Shown one piece after another: positions 13,474-25,974 of a stretch of 32,383 nt of DNA. The notes under the pieces were generated by a model. It searched no databases and was not told the DNA's origin. It worked only from the letters and a program-made list of their open reading frames with translations. This DNA is from Chloroflexota bacterium (lineage in GTDB: Bacteria; Chloroflexota; Anaerolineae; DTLA01). Position numbers and translations under genes: made by a program. The stretch lies in the NCBI GenBank assembly GCA_014360805.1, contig JACIWU010000037.1, forward strand, positions 1 through 32,383. The letters are read 5' to 3'. Every line of letters begins with the position of its first letter. Position 1 is the first letter of the stretch.

Positions 13474-13938
13474 ATGAAGCGATTCTTCTCCCGCATAGGG
13501 CGCGGCATCCTGCCCTTTTTCCTGCGCCATTGGGCGGGCGCAGCCATCGTGCTCCTGCTCCTGCTCGCCGCCTTCACCGGCTACCAGATGTGGCGTCTGG
13601 GGCCGGTGATGGCGCTCTCGCTGCTGCCCCAGTTGATTCTGTGCCTGGCGCTCGTCGTGGCGGTGGTTGCGGTCCGCCGGTTCATCAAGGCGCTGACCAC
13701 GAAGAACGTGGTGGAGAGCGGCGTGGCGCAGGGGCGCGCCACCCGCCCGCATGAAGATTGCCCACACAAAGACACGAAGACACGGAGTGCTTCTTTGCGG
13801 CCTGTGTGGGGAAGCATGCGCGGCGAGGTGGGGCCTTTCACGTTGCGTATGCACGCCTGGGAATTTCACATCCCCGCAGGTGCAGTCCCCCTGAGCTCTC
13901 GTCAGCGCCTTCGGCACCTCGCATTTGGACGCTCTTGA
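13474..13938 (+). CDS. Two-helix membrane protein with repeat-derived C-terminus
   Basis: A 154-residue open frame with GGGAGGTGG just before its ATG. Residues 1-20 are basic, and membrane helices lie at about 20-38 and 47-67. Residues 68-95 are a short cytosolic tail. From about residue 96 the frame runs through a CACAAAGACACGAAGACACGG word that looks like intergenic repeat DNA, and the remaining 58 residues have no protein-like pattern. The natural protein probably ended near residue 95, and a repeat insertion may have removed its stop. No family is recognised. Its stop overlaps the promoter of the next gene. Confidence 0.6.
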   Translation: MKRFFSRIGRGILPFFLRHWAGAAIVLLLLLAAFTGYQMWRLGPVMALSLLPQLILCLALVVAVVAVRRFIKALTTKNVVESGVAQGRATRPHEDCPHKDTKTRSASLRPVWGSMRGEVGPFTLRMHAWEFHIPAGAVPLSSRQRLRHLAFGRS

Positions 13939-13964
13939 CGTCCGTGCGCTATTTGCAGTACACT
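13935..13964 (+). promoter_or_regulatory. Sigma-70-like promoter for the nuclease-like gene
   Basis: TTGACG (13935-13940) and TACACT (13959-13964) are separated by 18 bases. Transcription should start near 13971, giving a leader of about 115 bases before the ATG at 14086. It marks the left edge of the lower-GC stretch. Confidence 0.65.
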
Positions 13965-14085
13965 GTGCACAAATGGGGAAGACATCAAGGGCTGGTCGGG
14001 CACCTCTGCCGGTATGCGTCTGGCGTGTGGCAAAACGTTTGTAACTACTGTGGACTCAAAAGGTAGAAAGACAGGAACTGAACGT

Positions 14086-15153
14086 ATGGTGAGAAGGCAA
14101 AACGAAAGCAAGATTCGGGAAAGCGAGGTGGAGGACGCGCTCGTTGCCAATCTCTCGTACCTTCAAGAACTGCTCGCTCTTGATTCCGAGCCCAGGCTAC
14201 TCGCAAGGCAGCTGCGAATGAGGTCGGGTGAGCAGCGACTTGATCTGCTGCTTCTGCACCGCAAAGACCTGGTACTGGTTGAACTGAAGGTTACGGCATT
14301 CAGCCCTGATCACCTTGAGCAGGTGGTAGGCTACGTGCGAGATATAGAGGAACTACAACGCTCGGGTAATCTGATCGCTGGCAGTACAAGACCCTACCTG
14401 TTGGTAACGGGGGCAAAGGAATCTGATTTCGGCCTCTGCAAAGAGCGGAACGTCACGCTAATCATTTACGATCCTTTGGATGTCATAACGCGGTACTTCA
14501 CAATGCTATCCGAACTGACTCCATTCTTTCGCGTCAAGCCGAACGACTATGGAGTCTATAGTCTAGCCCTGATTAACAGAACGCTGGCAGCGATCGGTGA
14601 GGGCAATCTTGACAAGCCCGCGATTGCCGAAGCAACTGGTCTCGGGAGGTCAAGCGTTCATCACCACCTAACAATTGCCAGAGAGTTCGGTTTGGTTAGG
14701 GTGGATCGCAAGAAGTGCTGGCTGACTGACTTTGGACACGCATACCTCAAGGCCATGCAATCGCGGACTGTGGCTGATGAGTTGTCGGAACAGCAGGCGG
14801 AACTGCTGAAGAAGTTCATTGCCAAAGACCCTTTCTACTCCCCTACCGTCTTTGGAATCTATGCAATCGTAGAAAGTGCTTTCCTGTTGTCAAGGAATGT
14901 GTATCCATTCTCGTTTGAACACCTTGTTAGGATGTTCACGACCCTGGCGGGCAAGGAAGCAGAATGGAGTGCTCCCAGAGCGCGAAACACAGCAACCTAC
15001 ACTTTCCTGAACTTCGCGATAGATTTGGGGCTCCTGGGCAAGGTCGGCCAGCAGATAGTTCTGACTCCTGCGGGCTTCAGGTTTATCATCGCACTACAAC
15101 TTCACAAGAGCATTGAGATGATAGAGAGCGTCTACATCGGGAGCGGTAAATAG
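14086..15153 (+). CDS. PDDEXK (NucS/RecB-like) nuclease-fold protein with winged helix
   Basis: A 355-residue protein of mosaic design. Residues 10-130 look like a PDDEXK nuclease: Glu16 in an alpha helix, Asp53 (RLDLLLL), Glu66-x-Lys68 (VELKV), then Gln79-x3-Tyr83 (QVVGY), the RecB-type motif. This is closest to NucS/DUF91-type domains. Residues about 174-225 form a winged helix (PAIAEATGLGRSSVHHHL). A second helical region (about 260-350) contains another winged-helix-like tail (LGLLGKVGQQIVLTPAGF). The ATG at 14086 follows AGGA and is preferred to one at 14014, which lacks a ribosome site. GC content is clearly lower than that of the flanking genes, suggesting transfer. Defence or DNA-repair roles are inference; the family name was not confirmed. 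Confidence 0.78.
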   Translation: MVRRQNESKIRESEVEDALVANLSYLQELLALDSEPRLLARQLRMRSGEQRLDLLLLHRKDLVLVELKVTAFSPDHLEQVVGYVRDIEELQRSGNLIAGSTRPYLLVTGAKESDFGLCKERNVTLIIYDPLDVITRYFTMLSELTPFFRVKPNDYGVYSLALINRTLAAIGEGNLDKPAIAEATGLGRSSVHHHLTIAREFGLVRVDRKKCWLTDFGHAYLKAMQSRTVADELSEQQAELLKKFIAKDPFYSPTVFGIYAIVESAFLLSRNVYPFSFEHLVRMFTTLAGKEAEWSAPRARNTATYTFLNFAIDLGLLGKVGQQIVLTPAGFRFIIALQLHKSIEMIESVYIGSGK

Positions 15154-15189
15154 GCTTGGAGACGACGTGGTTCCGAAGGGTGGATCTCA

Positions 15190-15624
15190 GTGTTGGAAGA
15201 GGAGGAGGGGGTGAAGGATCAAGAGGGGATTCTCAATTTAGAAAGAGAGTATGCTATTCTGGAGCGAGAGTGCATTGGGCGCAAGTCTCGTGAGGGCGCC
15301 TTTCCCGAACCCGTGGAGCGGGCCAGGGAGTTGCTTCTGGACGCGCAGCACCTGCTTGCGGAATATCAGCGGGAGCGTTCTCAGCGGGAACAAGCGGTCA
15401 TTGCGCTTCAATACCGCGGTGTGATGGACGTATACAATTTGCTCCAAGTGCCCTCCGAGTCTTGCAAGACATTGGCACCGCCGGAAAGCACGAAGAAGAT
15501 GTTCATCCGTCTTTATGAGCTGGCGAAGACCTTGGGCGACGAAGAGACCATGCGTTTCTGCGAAGATGTGCTGGAAACCTATGAGAGGCACCACATCAAC
15601 GACCACATTGAGTGGAAACGCTGA
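15190..15624 (+). CDS. Hypothetical charged helical protein, 144 residues
   Basis: No family is recognised. The protein is rich in Glu, Arg and Lys. It has helical, coiled-coil-prone stretches at residues 15-35 and 45-75 (ARELLLDAQHLLAEYQRERSQ) and a C-terminal helical part with two Cys residues. The start is GTG at 15190, preceded by GAAGGGTGG; a TTG directly after is an alternative. It begins 36 bases after the nuclease-like gene on the same strand and shares its lower GC, so the two probably travel together. It could be a small partner or regulator of that protein (inference). Confidence 0.6.
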   Translation: MLEEEEGVKDQEGILNLEREYAILERECIGRKSREGAFPEPVERARELLLDAQHLLAEYQRERSQREQAVIALQYRGVMDVYNLLQVPSESCKTLAPPESTKKMFIRLYELAKTLGDEETMRFCEDVLETYERHHINDHIEWKR

Positions 15625-15690
15625 CGCCCTGCGCAATTGCACCCCACGCGCCGCCGCTCGCAATGGGTTGGCGGCGCGATGCCAAAACAC

Positions 15691-15748
15691 GTAGGGCGGC
15701 TTTCCATAGCCGCCGGAAACGGGGGGCAGGCATGGGAACCTGCCCTAC
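15691..15748. repeat. GTAGGG...CCCTAC two-hairpin element, copy 1
   Basis: The outer ends GTAGGG and CCCTAC enclose two hairpins, GGCGGC-TTTCCATA-GCCGCC and GGCAGG-CATGGGAA-CCTGCC. It lies in the 523-base gap 15625-16147, which otherwise holds the AACACGAAT word at 15763-15792, copy 2, a promoter and a leader. Confidence 0.8.
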
Positions 15749-23302: not shown

Positions 23303-23346
23303 AGGGGGCGTGTAGCCCGATTCGGCTCCGTCTTGTGTGGGGGACC

Positions 23347-23382
23347 AAGGCGCGACGCACCTCCGGAAGTGCGTCGCACCTT
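23347..23382. repeat. 36-base hairpin element, second copy
   Basis: It matches the element at 8615-8650 with three changes (in the left arm and loop), so the stem now has some mismatches. TCTTGTGTGGGGGACC precedes it, resembling the bases before the first copy. It lies between gatC and the lipoprotein gene. Confidence 0.8.
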
Positions 23383-23489
23383 TGGTTTCATCGCTCACCC
23401 CAGGGTGGTGATTCCTCCGGCATCATCGCACTGCGGCCAGAAGGCTACAAGTGCAGCGCAGGTGGGCAAGTTGCCTTACGGCATGGCCG

Positions 23490-23873
23490 CTACTGCCTCG
23501 GCATGCGCGCCAAGATGACGATCTCGGAGGCGCTAGCCTGGACGGGGTAGGACTCCATGACGGGGCCGGTGAACCTGGCGGTTACCAGTGCGCCGAACTG
23601 GAGGTCGTCCCACGACGCCTTGACGTAGCCGTCGCCCTTCTTCTCCCAGATGCGCGTGGACTTGGACACGGCGACGATGGCCTTGTCGTAGCGGTTGCCC
23701 TCAACCTTCTCGCCCTCAATGCGGATGCGGCCCAGCACGTCGGCCAGTTGGCCGTCCGCAGGCTCAACGTTGGAGATGTTGCCCTTGATGTCGTAGTCGG
23801 CGCTGGGGGCTGCGGGCTTGCACCCCGCCAGCAGGGCGGCGATGAGCATGAGCGTCGCGATTGTGCGGAACAT
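23490..23873 (-). CDS. Lipoprotein, DUF3221-like
   Basis: A 127-residue secreted lipoprotein. The signal peptide ends in lipobox LLAGC (Cys at about 18), followed by a small beta domain of the kind seen in DUF3221 proteins: GNISNVEPADG, ILVEG-like RIRIEGEKVEGNRYDKAIVAVSKSTRIW, then LQFGALVTARFTGPV. The role is unknown; it would sit on the outer face of the membrane. The ATG at 23873 follows GGAGG at normal spacing, and the frame to 23930 lacks support. It is probably a single-gene unit. Confidence 0.8.
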   Translation of the reverse strand: MFRTIATLMLIAALLAGCKPAAPSADYDIKGNISNVEPADGQLADVLGRIRIEGEKVEGNRYDKAIVAVSKSTRIWEKKGDGYVKASWDDLQFGALVTARFTGPVMESYPVQASASEIVILARMPRQ

Positions 23874-24118
23874 GGGAACCTCCGTGAAATGTGATTCGTA
23901 AAACGCAAGGCGCGAAATGTGATGCTTCACAAGATAGACGACAGGGGAGGCGGGGTGGTTCCGTCGTCAGCCGGTGAAGGAGGGCGGCCGAGGCTGCCTG
24001 GTCTGTCAAAACCCCTCATCACCCACAGCCCCCATCTCGGCATAGCGCCGACGCAATGACAGGGGCAGGCGCCTCGCTGCCTCCCTGATTACTCCCAATG
24101 CGCGAAGAGCGGCATCAC

Positions 24119-24505
24119 TCACTCAACCTGTCTCAGTCTCGCAAGCCCCTCTAGAACCGATCGCGACAGTTCAATGTCAGCGACTGCCGTGTCCGCTAGT
24201 CTTCGCACACGGTCATCATAGTCTGCTTTGTTCCGATCATTCCGCAATCGGTCCAGGTTCTGGCTAATCTGTCTGCGCATCTTGTCAGAACTTTTCGTGA
24301 ACTCCTCACGCACTGCTCTGTGAACATCATGTCCTGTGGACAGATGGCGTCCTTCGGCGAGCAAGCAATTCCGCGCTTCGCAGAAAGCTGCGTAGTAGGC
24401 GCGGCTGATGGCCGCTCGTAGACGCGCCTCTTGCCCTGCCGGGCGCACATCTTGCCCTACGAGTTCCTGTGCCAGTCTTAGGTATTCCGACCAATCAAAG
24501 CTCAT
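24119..24505 (-). CDS. HEPN domain protein
   Basis: A 128-residue all-helical protein of HEPN type. It shows LRAAISRAYYAAFCEARN (about 29-46) and RLRNDRNKADYDD (86-98), the latter marking the family's second conserved helix. HEPN toxins that cut RNA carry R-x4-6-H. Here the His position is not filled (R-N-D-R-N-K-A-D-Y), so RNase activity is uncertain. It is the third gene of a cassette. Its ATG overlaps the upstream stop (ATGA), so its production is coupled to the middle gene. GC is lower than that of the flanking tldE and lipoprotein genes. A role as toxin, antitoxin or effector is inference. Confidence 0.82.
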   Translation of the reverse strand: MSFDWSEYLRLAQELVGQDVRPAGQEARLRAAISRAYYAAFCEARNCLLAEGRHLSTGHDVHRAVREEFTKSSDKMRRQISQNLDRLRNDRNKADYDDRVRRLADTAVADIELSRSVLEGLARLRQVE

Positions 24506-25038
24506 TGGAACTCCACATGAATGCAGAGTTTACCCTGTGCTTCATCAATCTTGTCAAGCCACCACTCTTGGTCCAGTTGGTTCAGTTTCTGCAAGGCTTC
24601 ATCAGGTGGCAGATCTGCCTGCACGAATGCGAACAACTCACGATCTGCAGGCGCTTCCGGATCTGTTATGACCTCAAGCACAACCCTGGAGGCATGACCA
24701 AACACCTCGGCGATCTTACGGCGTGCTTCTATCAGAAGAGGCGCCAGGAAAGGGTAGGCGCCTAGAAACTGGACTACCTCGTCTCGCCGTACGAAGTCAT
24801 ACAACGTGCTGATCCCCTGAACCTGCAATTCAGAGTCGCGGACAATGGACGCCCCTCTTTCGAGCCAAGTCCCTGATCGCTGGAATTCGCGGGCGGCTAA
24901 GAAGAGACTGCTGTCTGTGCTGGCACGCGGTGCCGACGACTGTACTGCTGAAACGCTTTTGACAGGCGCAAGCCATTTGGTCCCGCCGAGCGGGAACGCT
25001 GCTCCAGATCTTTGTGGCCGGACGGTCAAGCAAGTCAT
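24502..25038 (-). CDS. Conserved-type protein of unknown function, middle gene of the cassette
   Basis: A 178-residue protein. Residues 1-50 are variable-looking and may be disordered. From about residue 70 it has a compact domain: FLAPLLIEARRKIAEVFG, then VVLEVITDPEAPADRELFAFVQ, then EALQKLNQLDQEWWLDKI and a closing strand CIHVEF. No catalytic motif such as GSxxxxD of minimal nucleotidyltransferases is seen, so it is not an MNT antitoxin. It overlaps the TIGR04255 gene and the HEPN gene by ATGA at each end, which implies fixed stoichiometry. Its role could be that of a partner or antitoxin (inference). Confidence 0.75.
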   Translation of the reverse strand: MTCLTVRPQRSGAAFPLGGTKWLAPVKSVSAVQSSAPRASTDSSLFLAAREFQRSGTWLERGASIVRDSELQVQGISTLYDFVRRDEVVQFLGAYPFLAPLLIEARRKIAEVFGHASRVVLEVITDPEAPADRELFAFVQADLPPDEALQKLNQLDQEWWLDKIDEAQGKLCIHVEFQ

Positions 25039-25781
25039 TGTTCAGGTGTCTCCTCAAACATTTGCCGCAGCCGATCGGTTAGGCAGGCTTCAAAAACCTC
25101 CTCCACACGGCTGTGTGCCGCGTCTATCCACGTAAGCACATCGTCTAGCTGCACTTGGCCAGGTTCCGCCAGGAAGTAATCCAGATCAAGCATAACCGCG
25201 AGCGCATCGGGCTTCTCAATAGCAGCAGTTGCCACTTGAAGCCTGAGCCTGTCCCTGCCGTTCTGGTAAGGAACCTCGATTCCCACCATGAAGGGCCCGT
25301 AGTCTTGAGGCAAATTGGGTCCTACAAAGGGCCGAAACTCTAGATAATGTTCCAGATCAACTCGCTGACCAGGTATCTCGATGCGATTGATGTATCGTAG
25401 CCCAATTCGCTGAAAGCCTTCTGGTCGTGCGACGTCGCGGTAAGCAGAAAAGCCTTGCTGAATCAAAGGCAAGAACTCCCGCCAAGTCGGGTATGGCTTG
25501 AGGTGGTTAACGGCCAGTAAGTCGCGATCCACCTGCACTAAGGCTTTCTCATCCTCACGCAGAAATTGCATTCGGTCGGCCGTCAACACCTGCTGCCCGA
25601 CTCCGTCCGGCGTAGCGGTTACACTGAGTTCAACTATTCTCGCCTGTCGTCTTTTAGGAAATCTATCTCGTATCTTCTCATAGACAAGACCTGGGATGGC
25701 CAAATCCCATGGCTGACCGGGCTTAAAGCGAAACTCACACAATGCTTCAACAACTGGGGGGTTCCGATATCGCCTACCCAT
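25035..25781 (-). CDS. TIGR04255 family protein
   Basis: A 248-residue protein with the features I recall for the sporadically distributed TIGR04255 family: an N-terminal YRNPPVVEALCEFRF strand, then IPGLVYEKIRDRFP, a central GFQRIGLRYINRIEIPG, and a helical C-terminus (WIDAAHSRVEEVFEACL). The molecular function is unknown. The ATG at 25781 is chosen because AGGAGGTG lies seven bases before it; an ATG at 25841 extends the frame but lacks a good site. It leads the three-gene cassette, which is transcribed from the promoter at 25915-25943. Its lower GC compared with tldE suggests the cassette was acquired. Confidence 0.85.
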   Translation of the reverse strand: MGRRYRNPPVVEALCEFRFKPGQPWDLAIPGLVYEKIRDRFPKRRQARIVELSVTATPDGVGQQVLTADRMQFLREDEKALVQVDRDLLAVNHLKPYPTWREFLPLIQQGFSAYRDVARPEGFQRIGLRYINRIEIPGQRVDLEHYLEFRPFVGPNLPQDYGPFMVGIEVPYQNGRDRLRLQVATAAIEKPDALAVMLDLDYFLAEPGQVQLDDVLTWIDAAHSRVEEVFEACLTDRLRQMFEETPEQ

Positions 25782-25914
25782 CGGATCGCACCTCCTGGCG
25801 TGTTGCATCAGGATTTCAGAGTTCTTGCCACATGAGTTCATACGGGCGTGTTGAGAGGATGCCTTTCCTGCTCACTCCCGACTGCCATGGCGTATGTCCA
25901 ACGTCCGTAAATTC

Positions 25915-25943
25915 ATTATGACACAACTGGGTGCAAAACGCAA
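25915..25943 (-). promoter_or_regulatory. Sigma-70-like promoter for the TIGR04255/HEPN cassette
   Basis: On the minus strand, TTGCGT (25943-25938) and CATAAT (25920-25915) are separated by 17 bases. The expected start near 25908 gives a leader of about 127 bases before the ATG at 25781. No clear operator dyad was seen in the leader. Confidence 0.65.
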
Positions 25944-25974
25944 CACGAGCGGGCTCAAACCGCTTCCGCCACTC

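Follow-up and report, generated by a model that had tools for sequence, protein, structure and literature searches.

The window analysed here, a stretch of 32,383 nucleotides, carries between tldE and gatC a compact cassette of three minus-strand genes in the order A (a TIGR04255 protein), B and C (a HEPN protein, PF05168), and this trio looks like a toxin-antitoxin or phage-defence module that has not been described before. The reading that we prefer, and to which we give an even chance of being right, is that of a mobile tripartite toxin-antitoxin-like module, probably acting in abortive phage defence, in which C is the effector, B partners it and A can be exchanged. A mobile toxin-antitoxin or defence module without a described function had already been proposed in the first-pass annotation of this DNA; the comparative evidence supports that proposal, and from it we infer the toxicity and the role in defence. 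As for the missing description, PADLOC does not list the trio as such, A has no PADLOC match, and a search of 5.39 million papers for the TIGR04255 accession found no mention of it. To our knowledge no role has been described for TIGR04255, a sporadically distributed protein family of NCBI.

As first annotated, the three genes run in one direction and both junctions (A/B and B/C) are ATGA overlaps (Table 1), which, as that annotation proposed, may keep production of the three proteins tightly fixed. The GC content of the cassette (0.545) is below that of tldE (0.683) and gatA (0.696), which bears out the remark that the genes are poorer in GC than tldE (54.5% versus 68%). The suggestion that they have their own promoter did not hold up: a consensus promoter scan of the cassette found none (0.5 expected by chance), and the 193-nt gap from tldE to A offers only the CATAAT hexamer at 25920-25915, which resembles a -10 box without a good -35. 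The end coordinate given earlier to the cassette, 25943, takes in untranslated leader. Judging from its sequence, the true start of gene A is most likely 25781 and not 25841, since ATGGGTAGG is conserved in the homologues, which share the start MG[RK].Y..PP, and a GGAGGT Shine-Dalgarno motif lies just upstream. An Rfam scan of the 20-30 kb region gave no match.

Table 1. Features of the cassette and its insertion site (window coordinates unless a locus is named)
Feature	Coordinates	Strand	Description	Basis
Gene A	25035..25781	-	TIGR04255 protein, 248 aa; longest ORF 25035-25841	NCBIfam, homologue starts, Shine-Dalgarno motif
Gene B	24502..25038	-	Predicted adaptor/antitoxin-like protein, 178 aa	AF2 model; C behind in all B-carrying genomes
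Gene C	24119..24505	-	HEPN protein (PF05168), 128 aa, predicted RNase effector	Pfam, conservation
Leader, tldE stop to A	25782..25974	-	CATAAT -10-like hexamer 25920-25915; Shine-Dalgarno GGAGGT before A	
Insert between tldE and gatC, relative to congener G301	23303..25973	.		Empty-site comparison
MNT-HepT toxin-antitoxin pair of congener G302	L122 4638-5347			tldE|gatC junction

Gene A was used to search 84,980 species genomes, which gave 13 loci, one of which (L003) ends at a contig edge; the 12 informative loci comprise ten with an intact A-B-C, one with a decayed trio (L013) and one in which A has another partner (L012). Going by their labels, the carriers of A-B-C include Chloroflexota, Tectimicrobiota, Nitrospirota, Actinomycetota (Rubrobacter), Lithacetigenota and Clostridia; most are metagenome bins, and any single label should be taken with care. 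A seventh carrier group, Deinococcota, is represented by the Thermus brockianus plasmid pTB1, in which C is present in the sequence and missing from the plasmid gene table. The recurrent synteny with variable flanks that the first-pass annotation had named as support was thereby found in about seven phyla, the flanks differing from locus to locus and being unrelated. Since the identical order and the tight junctions are repeated across many phyla, the A-B-C order is not a matter of chance. The occurrence rates refer to the window's phylum, where TIGR04255 is indeed sporadic (30 of 301 Chloroflexota genomes) and B is found in 16 of the 301. The cassette is mobile. The decayed copies in L013, where A and C are frameshifted, and in L030, where A has an internal TAG, are those expected of a module that is gained and lost. 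Direct evidence for transmissible carriers is thin, since relatives of A occur in four of 72,556 plasmid records and one of 50,697 phage records; the viral contigs searched with A and the plasmids searched with B gave no match.

The insertion site itself could be compared in the two available congeners, G301 and G302, both of which are missing gene A. In G301 tldE runs almost directly into gatC, and in G302 the junction is occupied by a nucleotidyltransferase gene (PF01909, MNT, E 5e-17) and a HepT-like HEPN gene (PF01934, E 1e-26) that overlap by ATGA; this pair is a type VII HEPN/MNT toxin-antitoxin. Counting the A-B-C cassette of the window, three species of a single genus thus each show a different state of this site, which makes the junction look like a small hot spot of HEPN modules. 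The same insert in the window holds a small lipoprotein-like ORF (23490-23930) with weak matches to DUF3221 and DUF4440, absent from both congeners. No target-site duplication was seen when the insert ends were examined for repeats. The trio is not limited to one clade, and a housekeeping role was rejected on account of the sporadic distribution and the empty congener site.

Gene C matches the HEPN family PF05168 with 34.1 bits (Pfam gathering threshold 22, E 3.3e-8), its nearest solved relatives are 9xbd and 9xbc, and its matches in PADLOC are weak ones only, to PDC-M05B and HEPN_IX (E 0.0015). A literature search on 9xbc and 9xbd and on three-component HEPN systems found nothing relevant. 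Most HEPN proteins are RNases that carry an Rx4-6H motif. The histidine of this motif is absent in 27 of 27 aligned C proteins; in the C of the window, D95-Y96 come after R91. With the canonical motif missing C could be non-catalytic, and it is conceivable, although improbable, that it is an RNA- or protein-binding HEPN protein and the cassette a regulatory or housekeeping complex; the position of A-B-C in two related clostridial MAGs (L007 and L009), inside a glycolytic gap-pgk-tpi cluster between pgk and tpiA with no defence gene close, would fit such a role. It would however leave the invariance of H62, R30, R35 and R91 (27 of 27 aligned C proteins; D95 in 24 of 27) to be explained, as well as the sporadic TIGR04255 distribution and the empty congener site. 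According to PMC3710099, an alternative active site has been proposed for AF0298-like HEPN-T proteins and AbiV, the former being defined by a retained basic residue, a D in place of the H and a second conserved H between helices 2 and 3. C has all of these, with H62 placed between helices 2 and 3 from the primary sequence, and because its invariant H62, R30, R35 and R91 match the proposed alternative site, C is likely an RNase effector.

Gene B matches nothing in Pfam, NCBIfam, PADLOC or PHROGs, and a fold search of the PDB returned no confident relative. Among the 301 genomes of the phylum, C lies directly behind B in all 16 that carry B (in G294 C is broken) and A is adjacent to B-C in seven, so that nine of the 16 pairs are without A. 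B-C is an obligate pair and A is optional. The three-gene unit of the first-pass annotation thus stands insofar as the trio recurs as a unit, but it is not indivisible, and the nine pairs without A indicate that A is not needed for the basic control of C. Adjacent, co-oriented, obligately paired and joined by an ATGA overlap, B and C have the gene arrangement of a type II toxin-antitoxin. Without A, B may be short (113-157 aa) or fused, as in L097, where it is joined to an XRE-type HTH domain (HTH_3, E 2e-13), and in L096, where it is joined to a 908-aa DNA methyltransferase, C following in both. In the AF2 model of B, residues 1-63 are disordered and residues 64-178 form a confident, compact helical plus beta domain. 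The stretch ahead of this domain is longer where A is present (rank test, P 0.003, ignoring kinship), with L091, which has a long B tail without A, as the clear exception. From the predicted disorder and from the way in which tail length tracks A, it seems that the tail would be the A-binding part of B and the domain its C-binding part. Two candidate identities of B were rejected, namely a degenerate MNT antitoxin (there is no nucleotidyltransferase match in Pfam and the AF2 order, HHH-bb-a-b, gives no hint of one) and an Ohr/OsmC fold, for which the PDB fold matches were too poor for use.

Gene A matches NCBIfam TIGR04255 with 156.9 bits (cut-off 30, E 8e-46) over profile positions 1-251 of 252. 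It has no match in Pfam, so neither A nor, likewise, B has an MNT domain. The AF2 model of A (pLDDT 83.6) found no convincing fold relative in the PDB, all matches being weak (best E 3e-4, TM about 0.26). Matches to TBP-like and AdoMet-decarboxylase folds were too poor for use (TM about 0.26, rmsd 10-15). The idea of a SecB-like chaperone found no support in this search: SecB did not occur in the 50 top PDB matches listed, none of which was strong. The best viral match of the model is an unnamed protein, A0A515MGR4 (E 4e-7, TM 0.5). Since there is no confident fold relative in the PDB, the roles that we assign to A and B are drawn entirely from genetics.

What lies behind A varies. In the 30 TIGR04255 loci of the phylum, a HEPN gene follows A in nine, a gene with an 'ILYRRI...SVD' motif in six and a gene with an 'S/T-x-x-C-D' motif in nine, and six loci are unclassed. 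The second kind of partner is exemplified by L035, whose middle gene resembles the C-terminal part of PDC-M32A (E 1e-8) and whose last gene resembles PDC-M32B (E 2e-6). Proteins of 180-250 aa with S/T-x-x-C-D-I/L were observed one or two genes behind A in L012, L016, L021, L029, L119 and others, and the two that were tested belong to no Pfam or NCBIfam family. In a maximum-likelihood tree of A the HEPN-partnered proteins were monophyletic in 0% of 200 bootstrap trees; the best tree needs four changes of the HEPN-partner label, and well supported branches (100/99) show mixing in both directions. An exchange of partners by A is therefore supported, subject to the caution that the tree has several long branches. 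We would tentatively, and with somewhat less than even confidence, go further and regard TIGR04255 as the constant core of undescribed polymorphic three-gene conflict systems, placed ahead of at least three unrelated effector pairs and acting through flexible tails on the middle proteins. On this proposal, which we hold just as cautiously, the effectors would be swapped and the core kept, and the pairs would be B-HEPN, the PDC-M32-like pair and the pair ending in the S/T-x-x-C-D protein.

The same observations can be turned the other way: that A also accompanies two other kinds of gene pair, that B-C occurs without it in nine of 16 genomes and that a toxin-antitoxin pair sits at the same site in G302 would all be accounted for if B-C were a plain two-gene type II toxin-antitoxin (B antitoxin, C toxin) and A an unrelated hitch-hiker with small toxin-antitoxin pairs. 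We consider this unlikely, though far from negligible, given that across phyla A, when present, is directly upstream and co-directional, its junctions very short or overlapping, that the A-B-C order is fixed wherever A is adjacent, and that the tail of B is longer when A is present.

Defence genes, which the first-pass annotation had proposed to look for in the neighbourhood, were found at several loci. In L001 the trio is flanked by a Type III modification gene (MTase_III, E 2e-126) on one side and a res gene (ResIII) on the other, and the cassette on the Thermus plasmid is surrounded by genes for Argonaute, VapC (with VapBC genes near), Cas6 and a DNA methylase. A Type IIG enzyme adjoins C in L103, an HsdS-like gene is near B-C in L095, and the A-X-Y variant of L119 has a Type III res gene behind it. 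N6_Mtase genes lie within 5 kb of B in three of 16 genomes where 0.23 would be expected (P 0.002; counting the two sister loci once gives 0.02). These neighbours, together with the fusion of B to a methyltransferase in L096, could also mean that the cassette is a restriction-modification accessory, a suicide or back-up RNase guarding the restriction-modification system as PrrC, a HEPN anticodon nuclease of the EcoprrI Type I locus that comes with an ABC-type NTPase, does with EcoprrI. This is distinctly improbable, since no restriction-modification gene lies close to the window copy or to most of the others and the cassette includes neither an ABC NTPase nor a direct homologue of a restriction-modification subunit. 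The Type III modification gene of L001 (2941-5997) has an apparent intein-like (Hint) insert that contains a DUF559 nuclease domain. Elsewhere in the window, a second stretch of low GC content (13900-15700, 0.51-0.59) is possibly another defence-related insert, and ORF 14014-15153 within it shows weak similarity to wHTH domains and to a PDDEXK nuclease domain of the YhcG type.

In the tripartite module that we prefer, C would be an effector of the alternative-histidine (HEPN-T) type, most likely cleaving RNA, and the folded C-terminal domain of B would bind C and keep it in check. The obligate adjacency, the ATGA coupling and the fusion of B to an XRE-type HTH in one genome suggest such a restraint. 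A may bind the disordered tail at the N-terminus of B (some 55-90 residues, in most cases seen only with A) and would then be a third, exchangeable subunit, whose part is to stabilise or license B or to sense a trigger. Infection or another disturbance might disrupt the complex of A, B and C and set the RNase free. The physical complex, the RNase activity, its neutralisation and the trigger are what we infer. The link of TIGR04255 to B-HEPN and to two other pairs provides a testable function for a widespread family of unknown role, and likewise for HEPN proteins that the Rx4-6H rule misses. If different effectors can indeed make use of A, bacterial conflict systems would have a modular architecture of a new kind, with A as a possible bait for further effectors.

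Among the known systems, the HEPN-T proteins (A. fulgidus AF0298, PMC3710099) share with C the PF05168 family, the D replacing the catalytic H, the conserved H on the N-terminal side of the motif and the clustering with restriction-modification genes; C differs in being obligately paired with B and not with an MNT protein, and the B-C pair was not found in the searched text of that paper. The type VII system HepT-MntA, present at the same site in a congener, likewise has a small HEPN gene in ATGA overlap with an upstream partner. In contrast, B lacks a nucleotidyltransferase domain, the HEPN family is PF05168 and not PF01934, and our cassette has A as a third gene. PDC-M32, a phage-defence candidate in PADLOC, is related through the locus class in which genes matching PDC-M32A and PDC-M32B stand directly behind A (L035), but it concerns another TIGR04255 partner pair; B and C of the window do not match it, and the A proteins tested match none of its models. 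With PrrC/EcoprrI the cassette shares a HEPN nuclease gene embedded in a restriction-modification operon, as in L001, although that operon is Type III and not Type I, and the HEPN protein is here small and stand-alone, accompanied by B and A and not by an ABC-type NTPase. Finally, toxin-antitoxin-chaperone (TAC) systems consist of three genes, and their third protein, a SecB-like chaperone common to different toxin-antitoxin pairs, is proposed to act on a flexible antitoxin tail. Although the model of A does not resemble SecB among its best PDB matches, A comes first in the operon and the tail of B is N-terminal, the cassette has in common with TAC its three genes and a third protein that would act on a flexible tail and is found with different pairs.
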